Of a stretch of DNA of 64,000 nt, positions 5,958 through 12,344 are shown in pieces. The stretch is from Jatrophihabitans sp. (GTDB taxonomy: Bacteria > Actinomycetota > Actinomycetes > Mycobacteriales > Jatrophihabitantaceae). Each line of letters begins with the position of its first letter. Position 1 is the first letter of the stretch. Location: NCBI GenBank assembly GCA_036399055.1, contig DASWNX010000002.1, forward strand, positions 124,001 through 188,000. Direction: 5' to 3'. Under the pieces are notes generated by a model. That model saw only the letters and a list, made by a program, of their open reading frames with translations. It did no database searches and was not told the DNA's origin. The position numbers were made by a program, and so were the translations under genes.

Positions 5958-8726
5958 TCAGTCCTCGGTCAGCGAGGGCGCCCCAACCAACAACGGCAAG
6001 GACAGCGCCGCCAGCAAGGTCGCCAGCGCGCTGACCAGGACGCCGGTCAGCATGGTGAGCCCCGCCAGCAACCACAAGGCGCCCGGCGTCGAGCCGGCCA
6101 GCAGCGCGGTGACCCCCAAGCCCAGCGAGGCGCCCGCCGCCGAGCCGGCCAGTCCGATCAGCACCCCTTCGATGGTGATCAGCCGGCCCAGCTGCAGATT
6201 CGTCCACCCGACCGCCCGCAGCAGCGCCAGGTCCTCACGGCGCTCGCGCATGTTGAGGTAGCTGACATCGGCGACCGCGACCGCGGCGAGCGCCAGGGTG
6301 ATGGCGACCGCGAGATAGTCGACCCGGCGGGCCTGCAGCGAGATCACATCACCGAGCAGGCTGCCCACCATGCTGCCGTGAAAGGCCATCGTGATCGCCA
6401 GCACCGTCGTCAGGCCTGCCGAGCCGAGGGCCACTGCCGCCATTCCCAGCCCCGTGCGGCCGGGGTCGCCACGCAGGTTCAGGTATGCCAACTGCAGCAG
6501 CCCACGCGGTGAGCCACCGCCGGCGCTGTCACCGCTGCCGGGGAGCGAACGCGGCCGTCCAGTCGCGAGGGCCCCGGACAGCGGCGCGGGCAGCGAAGCC
6601 CGCCACACCGGCCAGGCGGCGGCCAGCAGCGTGAGGACCAGCGCCGCGGGCACCGAGGCCAGTGCCCGGCCCGTGCTCACCGGCACGCCGAGCCCGCGGG
6701 CGCCGGCCAGCGCCGCCAGCGCTCCGAGCACTCCGGCGCTGACGCCGATCACCGCCATCTCGCCCAGCATCAGCCGCAGGAGCTGACCGCGGCTCCAGCC
6801 CAGGCAGCTCAGCGTCGACAGCTCCCTCCTGGGTGAGCGCGCGGCGGCCGCCGCGGCGTTGGCGATGAACACCCCGCAGACCACCAGCACCAGGACGAAC
6901 AGCAACAGGCTCTTGCGGTCGATCGCCCGCAGGACCGTCACCGCCACTCCCTTGCGCTGCCACTGCTCGTACAGCTGCAGCTCCGGCCGTCCGGCCGAGC
7001 CTGCCGGCAGGAGGATGCGGCGGTTGGTCGGCGAGCTGCCGACCGTGACATCGACGTCCAGGCCGGTCGCGACCATGACCGCCTCGGCGACCAGCCGGAC
7101 CCGCTCCCGGCTCACCGGGTCGACGCCGCGCACCCCCGCCACCCGGATCTTGACGGCGCTGATCGGCGCGGCGTCGCTGACGTTGTCAAAGACCGAGGAG
7201 TCGGTGAACACCGACGCCGCGTCCAGAGAGGTCAGCAGGGCCGGCGCGGGCAGCAGGTAGCCGGCGATGTTGCTGTCGGGCAACAGCGACCGGCCCTGCA
7301 GCAGCGCGCTGCTGGCCGGATCAGCCGGTGTCAACGGCGCGGTGCGGTACCCGCCCAACGCGTGGGCGCCTCCGTCCAGCCGCGACTGATCGAAGGCCCC
7401 GATGACGGCCAGTCGGGGTCCGGCGCTCGGGGTCTCGCCGGTGGCCAGGAACGGATGGTGGCTGAGCCGGCGGAATGCGGTGTCGGCCGCCTCCGGAGGC
7501 GCCGCGACGTAGGTGTGGACGTTCACCGGCGCCTTCCAGACACTCGCCGGGTTGGTGACCGGGCGCGGTCGCAACGAGCCGTCGGGCCCGGCGCCATAGC
7601 TGACCCGGCCGCTGGTCCAGTAACTGGCCACGATCGGGTCATCGGCATTGGGCCGCAGCCTGGTCGCCAGCAGGCGCTGGTAGGCGGTCTCGGCCGTGAC
7701 GCGAAGGCTTGCGACCACGGCGCCCCGCTCCCGTTCCAGCAGCGCGTCCAGCCGCTCACTGGGCAGCCCGGCGCCGAACTCGGCGGTCGCCTCCGGCGTC
7801 AACCGCTCGATGCTGATCTCATCCTGCGCGTCGAAGCCTGCGTGCTCGGCCATCAGGACGGGCACGCTCTGGAGGCGCCGACCGGGCGCCATCCCATTCT
7901 GGGGGAGATAGCGGCCGCGGGTCACCGCTGAATCCAGCCCAGCCAACCTGGCTTCCTGCTCCGGGTCGATAGCCGCCAGCAGCAACGGGAAATTCCACTG
8001 CACCAGGATTCCGGCACGCCCCCGGGGCAGCAGCGTGAAGCCAGTGGCGTCCGGGCCGTTGGCCCGCGACCAGCAGGTGCCGTTGCGCTGGCTGCGCACC
8101 TCGAACGGCCCGCCGGTCGCCGGCAGTCGAATCGGGCAGACCAGCCGCGGTGTGCCGTCAGCTTCGGCTATCGAGACGCCTTGGGTGCGCGGATCGTCCT
8201 GCGCCGGCGCGCGCCGCACCGGCTGCGGGGTGACGTAGCTGTAGCTGATGTCCGGTTGCCGGAATTGGCTCAACCCCCGCGCGGTGAGCCGGCGGACGGA
8301 GGCGGTGAACAGCCGCTGCTCAGCCGGGCTGAGCTGGTCGGTGATGTCGATCGGGATGACGACGCTCTGTATCACGTAACCGACCATCGCGACCGGCGCG
8401 GCGACCTGCACCCCGTCCAGTTGTTGGATCTGACGCCATTGCCGCAGGGTGATGCCGCCGAACTGACCGGACAGGAAGTTGGCCCGCACCAGAGCTTGGC
8501 TCTTCTCGAGCTCGGTTCGGGAATTCGCCGGTCGCACCAGGATGTCGTAGCTCGAGATGGCCTCGGCGTCGACCTTGCCGCGCAGCTCCAGGCGTTGCTC
8601 TTCGACCTGCCCGGTGAGCACGATGAACGCGGTGCTGGCTGCCGCGACGCCTATGACCAGCGCTGTCCCCCGCAACCGATGGGCCCATAACCGCACCAGC
8701 AGCAGACGGATCACGGCTGCAGGCAC
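5958..8726 (-). CDS. FtsX/MacB-type ABC transporter permease, 922 residues
   Basis: A large membrane permease. It has one N-terminal membrane helix (about residues 15-37), a long extracytoplasmic region (about 40-600), three helices between about 615 and 715, and a second FtsX core (about 755-910). That core carries the segment RREDLALLRAVGWT, typical of MacB/FtsX/LolCE permeases. Such proteins use ATP hydrolysis to move or extrude peptides or lipoproteins. It lies 48 bp after the thioredoxin gene, in the peptide/MauE/TlpA operon, and the likely ATPase partner is at 10397-11161. The start is taken as GTG 8726; another GTG 12 nt downstream is possible. Confidence 0.85.
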   Translation of the reverse strand: MPAAVIRLLLVRLWAHRLRGTALVIGVAAASTAFIVLTGQVEEQRLELRGKVDAEAISSYDILVRPANSRTELEKSQALVRANFLSGQFGGITLRQWRQIQQLDGVQVAAPVAMVGYVIQSVVIPIDITDQLSPAEQRLFTASVRRLTARGLSQFRQPDISYSYVTPQPVRRAPAQDDPRTQGVSIAEADGTPRLVCPIRLPATGGPFEVRSQRNGTCWSRANGPDATGFTLLPRGRAGILVQWNFPLLLAAIDPEQEARLAGLDSAVTRGRYLPQNGMAPGRRLQSVPVLMAEHAGFDAQDEISIERLTPEATAEFGAGLPSERLDALLERERGAVVASLRVTAETAYQRLLATRLRPNADDPIVASYWTSGRVSYGAGPDGSLRPRPVTNPASVWKAPVNVHTYVAAPPEAADTAFRRLSHHPFLATGETPSAGPRLAVIGAFDQSRLDGGAHALGGYRTAPLTPADPASSALLQGRSLLPDSNIAGYLLPAPALLTSLDAASVFTDSSVFDNVSDAAPISAVKIRVAGVRGVDPVSRERVRLVAEAVMVATGLDVDVTVGSSPTNRRILLPAGSAGRPELQLYEQWQRKGVAVTVLRAIDRKSLLLFVLVLVVCGVFIANAAAAAARSPRRELSTLSCLGWSRGQLLRLMLGEMAVIGVSAGVLGALAALAGARGLGVPVSTGRALASVPAALVLTLLAAAWPVWRASLPAPLSGALATGRPRSLPGSGDSAGGGSPRGLLQLAYLNLRGDPGRTGLGMAAVALGSAGLTTVLAITMAFHGSMVGSLLGDVISLQARRVDYLAVAITLALAAVAVADVSYLNMRERREDLALLRAVGWTNLQLGRLITIEGVLIGLAGSAAGASLGLGVTALLAGSTPGALWLLAGLTMLTGVLVSALATLLAALSLPLLVGAPSLTED

Positions 8727-8774
8727 CTGCGAGCAGCGTTCATCGGCTCAGTGTGACCCTTTCGTCCATAAGTG

Positions 8775-9320
8775 TCACTGCCGCTGCGGCAGCGGCAGGT
8801 CGAACACCGAGTTGCCTGCACCCAGCACCGTCCCGGCCTCGGAGACCAGCACGAAGGACGGGAACGAGGTGATGCGGTAGGCGGTGGCGATCGGCCCGCC
8901 TTCGGGCTCAGAGACGATGACGGCCAGCCGGGCCAACCGCTGCTCTATCTCAGCGGCGCGTGCGTTGACGTCCCCGACGATCACAGTGATGAGCTGTCTC
9001 GGGTCAGGCAGCTGGCTGGCATAGCCGATCATGGCGGGCAGCGCTAGCAGGCATCCCTGGCAACTGCTGGAGAGAAAGCCCAGCAGGTGGGTCTGACCGG
9101 CCAACTCGGCGGTGTCGAACAACGCCGCTGTGCTGGTGCGGGCGGTGAACGGCGGCGCCGGGCTGCCGATGTCGGGGCCGCTGTCAGGCAGCGCGAGGGC
9201 GTGACCCACCGCCGGCGCCGACGGGCCGGTGGGCAGCGAACGCAGAAGCAGCAGCGAGATCGCCAGCGCCAGGGTGGCGACCACCGACGCGTAGACCACC
9301 AGGACGGTGATGATCGTCAT
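8775..9320 (-). CDS. membrane-anchored TlpA/MauD-like thioredoxin-fold protein
   Basis: A 181-residue protein with an N-terminal membrane anchor (residues 4-26) and an external thioredoxin-like domain. The active-site-like motif S-S-C-Q-G-C has Cys at 87 and 90. FPSFVLVSEAGTVL supplies the cis-Pro and beta-hairpin of the fold. MauD/TlpA-type proteins handle disulfides outside the membrane. The ATG overlaps the stop of the MauE-like gene (ATGA), so the two form a redox pair, as MauE and MauD do during maturation of the Cys-rich methylamine dehydrogenase light chain. No methylamine dehydrogenase gene is present. Confidence 0.85.
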   Translation of the reverse strand: MTIITVLVVYASVVATLALAISLLLLRSLPTGPSAPAVGHALALPDSGPDIGSPAPPFTARTSTAALFDTAELAGQTHLLGFLSSSCQGCLLALPAMIGYASQLPDPRQLITVIVGDVNARAAEIEQRLARLAVIVSEPEGGPIATAYRITSFPSFVLVSEAGTVLGAGNSVFDLPLPQRQ

Positions 9321-9901
9321 CGTAGGCCGCCGCCGGACAGGACCGAGCTCGACTCCACCGCCCGGCCTGCCCGGCGCCGGGTCGAGGACCGCTCAAGCAG
9401 CGCGCGCAACGGCCTGGCCTGGCTGACCAGCGTCGCGCCGACCAGAACCGTCAGGGCAGCGGCCAGCGCCACCGGCGCCGACGCCTGGGCAGCCGGCATA
9501 CGCAGGCTCGCTGCCAGCAGGACCGCCGCGCCGGTCAGCGCGCCGTTTCGCAGCACGGTCGGCCAGCTGAGCGGCGAGTGCCCGGTCCCGAAGCAGTTGC
9601 AGGCGAACCCGCGCCGCTGGGCCACCAGCAGCGCGGAGCCGGCGGTGAGGCATCCGAATTCCAGCACCGCCAGCACCGCTGCGTGACGGACAGTCAGCGG
9701 CAACGCCAACCCGAGCGCGGTGAGCCCCTCTACGGCGACCCAGGCGCCGGCCACCAACCTGGCCCCGGGCAGCCGCAGACCGACCCGCAGCACGCGGGCG
9801 AACTCCTCCAGCTCCGAGCGGCGCCACAACTTGCCGAGGGCCGCGGCAGCCAGCACCAGGACCAACAGGCATCGAACGGACATCACGGCATAACTGAACA
9901 C
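9317..9901 (-). CDS. MauE/DoxX-like redox-associated membrane protein
   Basis: A 194-residue protein with about four membrane helices (near residues 11-23, 48-70, 72-95 and 125-160). The C-N-C-F-G motif (Cys 101 and 103) is typical of the MauE family; these are DsbB/VKOR-like partners of MauD thioredoxins. The start is taken as GTG 9901, which has a GGGGGAAG ribosome site a few bases upstream; ATG 9883 is an alternative. It begins 32 bp after the six-Cys peptide gene and overlaps the thioredoxin gene, so all three are probably on one mRNA. Confidence 0.8.
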   Translation of the reverse strand: MFSYAVMSVRCLLVLVLAAAALGKLWRRSELEEFARVLRVGLRLPGARLVAGAWVAVEGLTALGLALPLTVRHAAVLAVLEFGCLTAGSALLVAQRRGFACNCFGTGHSPLSWPTVLRNGALTGAAVLLAASLRMPAAQASAPVALAAALTVLVGATLVSQARPLRALLERSSTRRRAGRAVESSSVLSGGGLR

Positions 9902-9933
9902 GGCACTTCCCCCGTCGTGTCGAAGTCCGAGTC

Positions 9934-10140
9934 TCAGCACTTGCTGCCGGTGTTCACCCATCCCTCGCAGTACCACGTGCAGTCCGAACGGAAATAGCAC
10001 AACCGTCGTTGGTAGTCATGGGCGGAGTTGCACCTGTACTCATACATCTCATCCCGTGCGCAGCTATCGGTCGACAGTGACTTGGCGACTTCAGACCGCG
10101 TCGAAAAGATTTGGGCTGCTCGAGCAAGCAGAGCGGTCAT
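9934..10140 (-). CDS. six-cysteine small peptide, candidate exported or RiPP-like peptide precursor
   Basis: A 68-residue protein with an ATG at 10140, a GAGGAA ribosome site 7 nt upstream and a clear promoter. The first 26 residues are a cysteine-free, moderately amphipathic leader-like segment (MTALLARAAQIFSTRSEVAK...). The last 42 residues carry six Cys at 27, 37, 48, 54, 58 and 68 and are rich in Tyr and Trp (C-T-W-Y-C-E-G-W). There is no classical signal peptide or lipobox. The next genes encode a MauE/TlpA disulfide pair and an FtsX-type exporter permease, so I infer a disulfide-bonded exported peptide. I do not recognise a family. Confidence 0.7.
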   Translation of the reverse strand: MTALLARAAQIFSTRSEVAKSLSTDSCARDEMYEYRCNSAHDYQRRLCYFRSDCTWYCEGWVNTGSKC

Positions 10141-10147
10141 TGCGGAA

Positions 10148-10210
10148 TTCCTCGCCGTAGTAGTGTGATTCTTCGTCAGGACGTTATGCACTGAACTTAC
10201 ATATGGTCAA
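10148..10210 (-). promoter_or_regulatory. promoter and ribosome site of the six-Cys peptide operon
   Basis: On the minus strand TTGACC (10205-10210), a 16-bp spacer and CATAAC (10183-10188) make a good sigma-A-type promoter. GAGGAA (10148-10153) lies 7 nt before the ATG. The surrounding 10,140-10,260 stretch is much richer in A and T than the rest of the window. Confidence 0.65.
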
Positions 10211-10348
10211 GATACATTGTGATTATTTATTCGTTCGTTTCGAGAAACTTACCTATTCGCGATCTGAAATGCGCCGTAGGGCGTGAAGGTCGCCGGCTGG
10301 CCGGCTCAGTCGCCCACGAGCGACTCAGCCGGGCCCGGCTTAATCGCC

Positions 10349-10400
10349 GCTGGCCGGCTCAGTAGTCGCTGGCCGGCTCAGTAGTCCCTTGCCGGCTCAG
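10349..10400. repeat. 19-bp tandem repeat between ABC ATPase gene and peptide promoter
   Basis: GCTGGCCGGCTCAGTAGTC occurs at 10349-10367 and 10368-10386, and a degraded third copy runs into the stop codon of the ATPase gene. It contains the palindromic GCCGGC and is probably slippage-derived. A terminator role is possible but not demonstrated. Confidence 0.75.
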
Positions 10401-11161
10401 CCCGGCCCGGTGATCCGGCGCAGCGTGCTGTCGGGATCCGCTCCGGGGAGGTCATGGTCGCTGACCACTCGCCCGTCACGCAGACCCACCAGCCGCTGGC
10501 ACTGGCTGGCCACCGTCGAATCGTGGGTGGCGAGGAGCATCGTCATGCCGTGCTCGGCCTGCAGTTCGCTCAGCAGGTCCAGAATCTCCTCACCGGTCCG
10601 GGAGTCGAGGTTTCCGGTCGGCTCATCGGCCAGCAGCAGTCGTGGCCGGTTCACCAGCGCCCGGGCGATGGCCACCCGCTGTTGTTGGCCGCCGGAGAGC
10701 TCCCGGGCGAGGACGGCGGACTGGTCGGCCAGCCCGACGGCCGCCAGCAACTCATGACCGCGCTTCTGTTTGTCGAAGTCGACTCGTAGTGGCAACACAG
10801 GAGTTATGACGTTGTCCAGCGCCGAAAGGTTGCTTAGCAGGTGATAGCGCTGAAAGACGAACCCGACGCTGCCTCGATAGGTCGCCGATTGCTTGCCGGA
10901 CAGCTCCGCAATGTTGACGCCGTCGACATGGATGCTGCCGGAATCCGCAATCTCCAGACCGCCGACCAGCTGGAGGAGGGTGGACTTTCCCGCTCCGGAC
11001 GGCCCAGTGACTGCAACGATTTGACCCGGCAGGATAGTGAGTGAGACCTGTGCCAGTGAGGTCACGGTGGCCCGGCCCTGCCGCCGGGTCTTGGTCACCT
11101 CAGCCAGCTCGACGAGTGCGCCTGCCTGGGTCGCGGAGGACGTACCGGCTGGAACCACCAT
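10397..11161 (-). CDS. MacB/LolD-type ABC transporter ATP-binding protein
   Basis: A 254-residue ATPase with Walker A GPSGAGKST, Q-loop segment FVFQRYHLLSNLSALDNV, signature LSGGQQQR, Walker B LLLADEPTGNLDSRTG and the H-loop in LLATHD. The TGNLDS signature is typical of the MacB/LolD/FtsE class that pairs with FtsX-type permeases, so the partner is most likely the permease at 5958-8726. The start is taken as ATG 11161, with GGGAGG upstream. The gene diverges from the padR gene across 83 bp. Confidence 0.9.
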   Translation of the reverse strand: MVVPAGTSSATQAGALVELAEVTKTRRQGRATVTSLAQVSLTILPGQIVAVTGPSGAGKSTLLQLVGGLEIADSGSIHVDGVNIAELSGKQSATYRGSVGFVFQRYHLLSNLSALDNVITPVLPLRVDFDKQKRGHELLAAVGLADQSAVLARELSGGQQQRVAIARALVNRPRLLLADEPTGNLDSRTGEEILDLLSELQAEHGMTMLLATHDSTVASQCQRLVGLRDGRVVSDHDLPGADPDSTLRRITGPG

Positions 11162-11232
11162 CTTCTCATCATCCTCCCGGCCCAAAGGCTGCGGTCTGCG
11201 CCACTGCGCCCTCGTGACCAAAGCGTTGCCCC

Positions 11233-11238
11233 TATAGT
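11233..11238 (+). promoter_or_regulatory. -10 element of a leaderless padR transcript
   Basis: TATAGT lies exactly six bases before the GTG at 11245, and no ribosome site precedes the start, so the mRNA is probably leaderless. The core CTATAG is self-complementary and may also serve the divergent ABC ATPase gene. Confidence 0.5.
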
Positions 11239-11244
11239 GGGCGA

Positions 11245-11829
11245 GTGGCTATCCAACACGCGGTGTTGTCCTTTCTCGCCGATGGGCCCAGCTACGGCTA
11301 TGAAATCAAGACGAATTTCGAGAAAGCGGTTGGCCCACAATGGGGCGGGCTCAATATCGGTCACGTCTACCAAATTCTGGAACGGCTCAGCCGCGATGGC
11401 CTGGTGACCTCTCGGACTGTGTCCCAGGAAGTCCGGCCCGACCGCACTGTCTACAAAATCACTGCCGCCGGACGGCGTGAACTCGACGGCTGGCTGGCTG
11501 AGCCCACCACTCGGACCGCGGGTTACCGCGACGACTTCATCCTGAAGATCCTGGCTGCCGGCCGGCGCAGCGAGGAACAGGTGCACGAGGTCTGCCGCAC
11601 CCAGCGCGATGCTCGCATGGCTGAGCTGCAGACCCTGCGAGCGCTGCGCCGCCAGCACAAGGACGAGCCGTTGGCCTCGCTGACCATCGAGGCAGCCATC
11701 CTCGGCGTGCAGGCTGATCTCAAGCTGATCGAGTTCGCCGACGCCAACGCCGCACGCCCGTTGCTGGCCGCCAGCACGGCCGACCGCGCGACGAAGCCGG
11801 CCGAAAGCCGTCGCGCAGCCGGTCAGTGA
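11245..11829 (+). CDS. PadR-family transcriptional regulator
   Basis: A 194-residue protein. The N-terminal winged helix (residues 1-85) contains AVLSFLADGPSYGYEI, then GHVYQILERLSRDGLV and a basic wing, as in PadR. The helical C-terminal half (90-170) is of the Vir_act_alpha_C type used for dimerisation. PadR proteins commonly repress adjacent drug or peptide exporter genes. This one diverges from the ABC ATPase gene and is the likely regulator of the peptide-export locus. Its stop overlaps the GTG of the next gene. Confidence 0.9.
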   Translation: MAIQHAVLSFLADGPSYGYEIKTNFEKAVGPQWGGLNIGHVYQILERLSRDGLVTSRTVSQEVRPDRTVYKITAAGRRELDGWLAEPTTRTAGYRDDFILKILAAGRRSEEQVHEVCRTQRDARMAELQTLRALRRQHKDEPLASLTIEAAILGVQADLKLIEFADANAARPLLAASTADRATKPAESRRAAGQ

Positions 11830-12344
11830 CCCCAGGCCTGCGGGCAGCGGCTGAGTCTGCGACCTCGCTCACGCTGGCCAGCGCCGTCGGGGCGGCGGTC
11901 ATCTCACTGCTGGTCGCGATCGGCACCCAGGTCGCCCTCAGCGTGCGAGAAAGCCACGCCCGTCGCTACCAGCGCAGGCGTGCCGCGCTGACCGACGCCC
12001 AGGACGCCGCGCTGGCCCTGCGAGGCAGGGTTCAGGATTACGGGGCGATCAGCCGCGCCCAGGCCGGGCAGCCCTCACCAGAACTGGAACAGGCCGAGCG
12101 CCGCTTCGTCGATGCCCGTGCGCTGCTCGAGGTCACCCTCAGCCGGGTGGACGATCCGGCGGTGACGGCAGCCGCGCAGCGCTGGCGCTCGGCGGCGGAG
12201 ATCAGCTTCATCAGCTCGGCCGATCTGTCGGCGGCGCAGGAGCAACAGCATTGGCAGGATCTGAACGCCGCGATCGGCAGCGCGTTGCGAAGCAAGGACG
12301 GCGTGTCGGCAAGGCCTGGCTCCCCCGGCCGGCCCAACCGGTGA
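11826..12344 (+). CDS. hypothetical single-pass membrane protein with coiled-coil-like region
   Basis: A 172-residue protein whose GTG overlaps the padR stop (GTGA), so it is coupled to padR. One membrane segment (about residues 16-40) is followed by a strongly charged helical region with Arg/Lys- and Glu/Ala-rich heptad-like spacing and a Pro/Gly-rich tail. I recognise no family. Position suggests an accessory to the PadR/ABC locus. Confidence 0.6.
   Translation: MTPGLRAAAESATSLTLASAVGAAVISLLVAIGTQVALSVRESHARRYQRRRAALTDAQDAALALRGRVQDYGAISRAQAGQPSPELEQAERRFVDARALLEVTLSRVDDPAVTAAAQRWRSAAEISFISSADLSAAQEQQHWQDLNAAIGSALRSKDGVSARPGSPGRPNR

Follow-up and report, generated by a model that had tools for sequence, protein, structure and literature searches.

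The window analysed here, a 64,000-nucleotide stretch of a Jatrophihabitans sp. genome (contig DASWNX010000002.1), carries on its minus strand, from 11161 to 5958, a row of genes encoding in order an ATP-binding cassette (ABC) ATPase, a 68-residue cysteine (Cys)-rich precursor peptide, a MauE-like membrane redox protein, a TlpA-like thioredoxin, and an FtsX-type permease. We assign a probability of roughly two in three to the reading that the product of this locus is a small, secreted, disulfide-rich peptide oxidised outside the membrane by the MauE/TlpA pair. By computation, the operon is conserved, the Cys are conserved in a variable core and are even in number, and the MauE subtype co-localises across actinobacteria with TlpA, an exporter, an S26 signal peptidase, and peptides of this kind. 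We infer translation, export, disulfide formation, leader cleavage, and a biological activity, which is most likely antagonistic (bacteriocin-like) or signalling.

The peptide gene (10140-9934, minus strand) starts with ATG and encodes a proposed leader, residues 1-26, and a Cys-rich core, residues 27-68, whose six Cys lie at positions 27, 37, 48, 54, 58, and 68 (spacing 9/10/5/3/9). The peptide has no match in Pfam or NCBIfam, and its profile matches no solved structure up to E=10. The open reading frame (ORF) is not due to chance, because a homologue is present at the same place in two of eight other genomes of the genus (G002 and G008) and in four of 12 Jiangella genomes; all six Cys are aligned across these seven sequences. 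Upstream lies a promoter-like element (10181..10210, minus strand) composed of TTGACC (10205-10210), an 18-nucleotide spacer, and TAACGT (10181-10186), with a matching site in G002 and G008, where the spacer is 17 nucleotides, such that TTGACC-N17/18-TA(A/C)CGT is kept in all three same-genus copies. A GAGGAA resembling a ribosome-binding site (10148..10153, minus strand), read in the sequence, precedes the ATG by 7 nucleotides, and this purine-rich site is also conserved in the same-genus copies. The AT-richest 250 nucleotides found in the window, 10026-10275, span the peptide start and promoter (GC fraction 0.48 versus 0.707 overall). An earlier note made from the sequence of the window had located these five genes and a divergent PadR gene correctly, had counted 68 residues with six Cys within residues 27-68, and had recognised the ribosome site. 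The separate peptide promoter that it proposed gains from conservation in the three copies, whereas we align the -10 element as TAACGT after an 18-nucleotide spacer and not CATAAC after 16.

The MauE gene is found at this locus in three of nine genus genomes (the window genome, G002, and G008), and the three copies have identical gene order, with cobL on the left and a gene for a 172-residue protein on the right. Of 24 family genomes, the same three match both the permease and PadR; the remaining 21, several of them incomplete, match neither. Identity of the same-genus copies to the window copy is 94-96% for PadR, 77-82% for the ATPase, 68-74% for the permease, 62-65% for TlpA, 60-70% for MauE, and only 28-43% for the peptide. 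The nonsynonymous divergence (dN) of the peptide in same-genus pairs, 0.51-0.89, is above that of every other gene with a valid value, in a set that excludes three values lost to failed calculation or to off-frame coordinates (the ATPase in window-G002 and G002-G008 and the 172-residue protein gene in window-G002). Its ratio to synonymous divergence (dN/dS) is 0.48-0.79, that is, below 1, and positive selection is therefore not shown. A look for empty sites found cobL in four of six genomes queried, with cobM adjoining in those four; the right-hand flank genes lay outside the stretches covered. A plasmid search for MauE gave no match, and a search of named genome contigs confirmed no relative.

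The Jiangella contigs, which include those of J. asiatica and J. anatolica, present the same elements in another form. In the four genomes with the peptide it has eight Cys, MauE and TlpA are fused in one protein that is followed by an MsbA-type exporter, and counterparts of the window ATPase and permease genes enclose peptide, fusion, and exporter. The window and G002 peptides are the only two of the seven aligned members to lack Cys2 or Cys5 of this 8-Cys pattern, and each lacks both; this joint absence suggests a Cys2-Cys5 bond in the 8-Cys form. One Jiangella locus (L044, 14029-16241, minus strand) has two genes between those for PadR and the ATPase, putatively methyltransferase-like and ATP-grasp-like, in the manner of a graspetide pair.

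The wider occurrence of such loci was assessed with a MauE profile run over 394 genomes of the class, with matches taken as strong or weak on either side of a gap, chosen by us, from 57 down to 53 bits. Of the 76 strong loci, 58 fetched and eight earlier ones are strong matches of this run, nine come from the genus search and figure in the MauE profile as well, and the last is the window; a second strong match inside one locus (G187:C57 in L122) is not counted separately. The 24 controls are 22 weak MauE matches from the upper part of the list and two further MauE genes from the window genome, of which one was placed by PF07291; L163, L165, and L176 stop early at contig ends. Presence was scored within 6.5 kb using our own profiles and score limits. 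Strong loci contain TlpA in 66/76, an MsbA-type exporter in 60/76, S26 signal peptidase in 51/76, and an FtsX permease in 9/76, and a peptide matching the leader profile occurs in 47/76, or 57/76 if ten loci read by hand are included. With the same profiles, TlpA, MsbA-type exporter, S26, FtsX permease, and leader-type peptide are each found in 0/24 controls. Within aligned domains the MauE CxC motif is present in 76/76 and the TlpA CxxC motif in 65/66. The check proposed in the earlier note, a search for Cys-rich genes adjoining MauE and TlpA in other actinomycetes, thus finds them, with conserved Cys among variable residues.

The precursors of these loci share the leader consensus M-x6-L-x-D-R-L-L-x3-V-P-x3-A-x-A (29 leaders), and the cores that follow hold from four to 10 Cys; eight loci encode two or three peptides. 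Short precursors with a conserved leader and 47 dissimilar cores make the wider class a candidate group of ribosomally synthesised and post-translationally modified peptides (RiPPs). Run alone against the 394 genomes, the leader profile gives 47 matches in 19 genomes, of which 44 lie at most 6 kb from a strong MauE and three adjoin S26 with an MsbA or FtsX transporter; since the profile was built from these loci, 44/47 is a measure of specificity and not an independent discovery. The place of the window peptide in this class would rest on synteny and on a chain of peptides leading from the window through G008 and Jiangella to L042 and L043, two loci of one genus (genomes of 9.2 and 10 Mb), presumably Streptomyces by our guess, which have 8-Cys cores of the window/Jiangella type.

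Several loci stand apart from this pattern. Two tandem Cys-rich peptides in L147 (8536-9207, minus strand), outside the set counted below, have the N-terminus M-x2-LFAF-x-VAKP near MauE, TlpA, and MsbA, and possibly represent a second leader type. L221 and L222, from a genome in which MauE is matched eight times, combine TlpA, MsbA, S26, and peptide and have no MauE match within the stretch fetched. In the control locus L157 (6577-6903, minus strand) a small Cys-rich protein with an apparent Sec/Tat signal adjoins a weak-type MauE gene. G008 has another MauE/TlpA/ABC locus (L023, 175-2935, plus strand) near a short CC-rich, putatively lanthipeptide-like ORF and a large gene that may resemble one for a lanthipeptide synthetase.

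The number of Cys is even in 69/69 peptides (34 with six, 29 with eight, four with 10, and two with four) and in 47/47 after removal of similar cores (p=7e-15 versus a coin toss). The 69 consist of 58 leader-profile matches with at least four Cys and 11 peptides added by hand, all even in both groups; the profile gave 66 matches of at least 7.5 bits in the strong and control loci scanned, from which one 3-Cys match (L020, 14.1 bits), one 1-Cys match, and six without Cys were left out. With no Cys filter, 51/51 profile matches of at least 15 bits have at least four Cys in even number. Exactly this parity would be expected if all Cys were paired, and the disulfide reading advanced in the earlier note gains accordingly; of the evidence that sequence can offer for disulfides, the even Cys number is the best. 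The order C-C-CC-C-C of inhibitor cystine knots, judged by order alone, appears in 22/69 peptides, the window peptide not being one of them.

The MauE-like protein (9317..9901, minus strand) matches PF07291 with 57.9 bits (cut-off 27), contains a CxC motif (ACNCFG), and most likely starts, after correction, with the GTG at 9901. Its gene overlaps by 4 nucleotides (9317/9320) that of the TlpA/MauD-like thioredoxin (8775..9320, minus strand; motif CQGC), so that the coupling described in the earlier note holds. The thioredoxin has AhpC-TSA, ResA, and MauD matches, all under curated cut-offs; a MauE with CxC beside a thioredoxin with CxxC is the composition of a MauE/MauD disulfide system, with TlpA here under both the Pfam and MauD cut-offs. 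The 922-residue FtsX/MacB-type permease (5958..8726, minus strand) matches PF02687 over two stretches (66.9 bits) and the MacB/LolD-type ATPase (10397..11161, minus strand) matches PF00005 (122.7 bits), both over cut-off, which places the pair among MacB/LolCDE-like FtsX ABC transporters; neither reaches an NCBIfam cut-off among the matches listed. The ATPase ORF is open to 11221, and its start is assigned to the ATG at 11161 (254 residues) rather than the TTG at 11221 because the same-genus copy has 254 residues. Among solved structures the permease matches LolF/LolE weakly (E 0.004-0.03) and YtrF and PsdB below significance, and a defence-system library yielded only a generic ATPase and a weak LolE-like match. 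On the plus strand, the divergent PadR-type regulator (11245..11829; PF03551, 63.7 bits) has a stop that overlaps by 4 nucleotides the gene of the 172-residue protein (11826..12344), which is syntenic in both same-genus copies, and has no Pfam match over cut-off and no NCBIfam match; it is a syntenic neighbour whose membership of the cassette is uncertain.

Several observations weigh against the proposed secretion and oxidation of the peptide, and the first group concerns the FtsX pair as exporter. The permease profile matches 22/394 class genomes, and the 25 permease loci considered (the window, L015, L016, L039, L040, and L044-L063) comprise 10 with an intact peptide gene, five with relics, and 10 with neither, the 15 peptide-less loci having been checked by the leader profile and by a scan for short ORFs with at least four Cys. 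The FtsX/ATPase core, mostly with PadR, is present in these 15/25 loci without an intact peptide; it is thus no specific mark of peptide export and could be a pump serving immunity or detoxification. Gene content also indicates that PadR goes with this core and not with the peptide. Seven Jiangella loci have the permease and no intact peptide, and in them the FtsX permease, ATPase, and PadR match over their full length; remnants of the MsbA gene persist in five, and one of these also has a broken peptide gene. The five (L045, L049, L050, L052, and L053) hold decaying remains of the peptide cassette between intact flanking transporter genes, with best blastn values of 1e-112 to about 1e-14; the tblastn E-values for the relics refer to a tiny database. 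The survival of the FtsX pair after cassette loss suits immunity better than export and points to self-protection. Finally, the congeners G002 and G008 carry an MsbA-subfamily exporter at another locus.

It is quite possible, at somewhat under even odds, that the permease and ATPase serve only as a pump for immunity or resistance, that the peptide leaves by another exporter, and that PadR regulates the pump by sensing either the peptide or a foreign drug. Transporters of the LanFEG or BceAB type protect against lantibiotics, and the lantibiotic transporter permease PsdB is among the solved-structure matches, although not significantly (E 0.47). The co-occurrence of an MsbA-type exporter and the FtsX pair near the peptide in four Jiangella loci, G197, and G289 favours the same explanation, as does the pump outliving the producer genes in 5/7 peptide-less Jiangella loci. 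However, the window genome (G000, 99.46% complete) keeps peptide, MauE, and TlpA yet has no high-scoring MsbA-subfamily exporter, its best score being 268 bits compared with 622 for G217, which is outside the profile, and with 972 for G190, 911 for G002, and 745 for G008, three genomes that contributed sequences to the profile. Either the FtsX pair is the exporter, then, or an unrelated exporter exists.

The FtsX pair occurs near the peptide in five arrangements. The window genus has no MsbA or S26 match in the cassette, and Jiangella has both transporters. In G197 the order is peptide-S26-permease-MauE-TlpA-ATPase, with MsbA convergent; in G289 the pair is divergent from MauE-TlpA-MsbA-S26. 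In G217 the order is peptide-S26-permease-ATPase; the 18 kb fetched contain no match to MauE, TlpA, or MsbA, and the FtsX pair and S26 adjoining the peptide argue against a role in immunity alone. The recurrence of the same partners in differing gene orders argues for a functional link. We therefore lean slightly towards export of the peptide by the FtsX pair, with or without protection. The exporter role given to it in the earlier note thus retains the support that the pair is the sole candidate dedicated transporter in the window cassette, and loses from the core lacking an intact peptide in so many loci.

The second group of adverse observations concerns the peptide and its class. The window leader is without the P-x3-A-x-A motif and is missed by the class leader profile, and the window cassette, which the search for S26 covered, has no S26 match. 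No peptide was detected in 19/76 strong loci. Seed collection partly shaped the leader motif, in that its patterns required the P-x3-A/V-x-A part, and a generic scan for short ORFs with at least five Cys and no leader gave matches in 45/75 strong and also in 4/23 control loci, so that Cys-rich ORFs without a leader are no proof. Moreover, other Cys proteins are also served by members of the MauE and TlpA families, and many TlpA-like proteins are reductases. MauE/TlpA might then have a reducing or isomerising role, or serve the maturation of a different secreted Cys protein with the peptide a mere neighbour, and the leader peptide of G217, with neither MauE nor TlpA in the fetched stretch, is in keeping with this. 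We regard it as improbable in view of the peptides in 57/76 strong loci, the leader peptides in 47/76 versus 0/24 controls, the even Cys number, and the MauE-TlpA fusion adjoining a peptide. Less probable still is that the Cys bind metal or carry another modification, as in a metallophore or thioether peptide: MauE matches HvfX, a maturation protein of Cu-RiPPs, below threshold (9.9 bits, cut-off 80, E 0.79), but the Cys number is strictly even with varied spacing, and no lanthipeptide, YcaO, radical-SAM, or DUF692 family is among the listed matches of the seven window proteins scanned.

In the preferred reading, secretion of an oxidised peptide, the precursor would be made from its own promoter, and its N-terminal leader, by eye not Sec-like, would be recognised by a dedicated transporter. 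The FtsX-type permease and ATPase would move the peptide out of the cell or membrane, perhaps providing self-protection at the same time; the pair most likely does so because the cassette offers no other such candidate. The TlpA-like thioredoxin and MauE, as an oxidising pair on the outer face of the membrane, would introduce three disulfides into the core of 42 residues, and the leader would be removed. The window peptide looks like one member of a widespread, fast-diversifying, uncharacterised actinobacterial peptide group. We judge the odds a little better than even that actinobacteria hold a large undescribed class of hypervariable disulfide mini-proteins with leader-guided MsbA- or FtsX-type export, dedicated MauE/TlpA oxidation, and S26 leader cleavage, of which the window holds an FtsX-only variant. 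If so, the MauE subtype together with the leader offers a genetic handle for going from the genomes of well-known antibiotic producers to their disulfide-rich mini-proteins, and the function of the poorly understood MauE family could be put to a clear test. The even-Cys rule allows a direct test of disulfide formation, and the variant with FtsX alone raises the question of whether MacB/FtsX transporters are primary exporters of such peptides or serve for protection only.

Among known systems, the ATPase resembles those of lactococcin 972-type ABC systems (169.9 bits), although membership of the lactococcin 972 export family TIGR03608 is rejected by its cut-off of 254.85. Lactococcin 972-type systems place an FtsX-like permease beside a small secreted peptide; the peptide here has no family match, and MauE/TlpA are added. 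With the MauE/MauD proteins of methylamine dehydrogenase maturation (described in PMC7794033) the locus shares the MauE family, a thioredoxin-like partner, and proposed disulfide formation in a Cys-rich substrate, but its proposed substrate is a short variable peptide. Maturation of methylamine dehydrogenase itself (the mau cluster) is rejected for this locus, since the seven window proteins scanned include no subunit of that enzyme; the earlier note's statement that methylamine dehydrogenase, lanthipeptide, and YcaO families are missing agrees with the matches listed for these proteins.

The nearest proven actinobacterial disulfide bacteriocins of which we know, by precursor size and transporter genes, are the actifensins. 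Actifensin and actinomycesin are defensin-like bacteriocins with a 69-residue precursor, a 32-residue leader, and three disulfides (PMC6989792). They share with the present system an actinobacterial precursor of similar size, ABC transporter genes alongside, and variable homologues; they differ in that the word thioredoxin is absent from that paper and the locus as described there is without a MauE gene. Membership of the CS-alpha-beta (C6) defensins is rejected, the motif C-X5-12-C-X3-C-X9-10-C-X4-5-C-X-C given in the same paper being found in 0/69 peptides.

The closest precedent in idea is decRiPPter, which (PMC7794033) reports three mauE-containing candidate RiPP families in Streptomyces, one also with mauD, with precursors of at least eight Cys, and proposes a role for mauE in precursor modification. 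The likeness is that mauE, once with mauD, adjoins Cys-rich predicted precursors, as here. The difference, compared by description, is that these are Streptomyces predictions and that the text consulted mentions neither an FtsX transporter nor a leader motif, a Cys-parity rule, a link to S26, or genera beyond Streptomyces. In the literature searched, which comprised few subscription papers and the best of many hits, this paper alone connected MauE with Cys-rich precursors, and the FtsX variant, the leader, and the Cys-parity rule were not found in print. The description of the system as undescribed in the earlier note therefore holds only in part: the idea is not wholly new, because decRiPPter had flagged mauE-containing Cys-rich candidates, and the loci L042 and L043 may belong to its mauE families.

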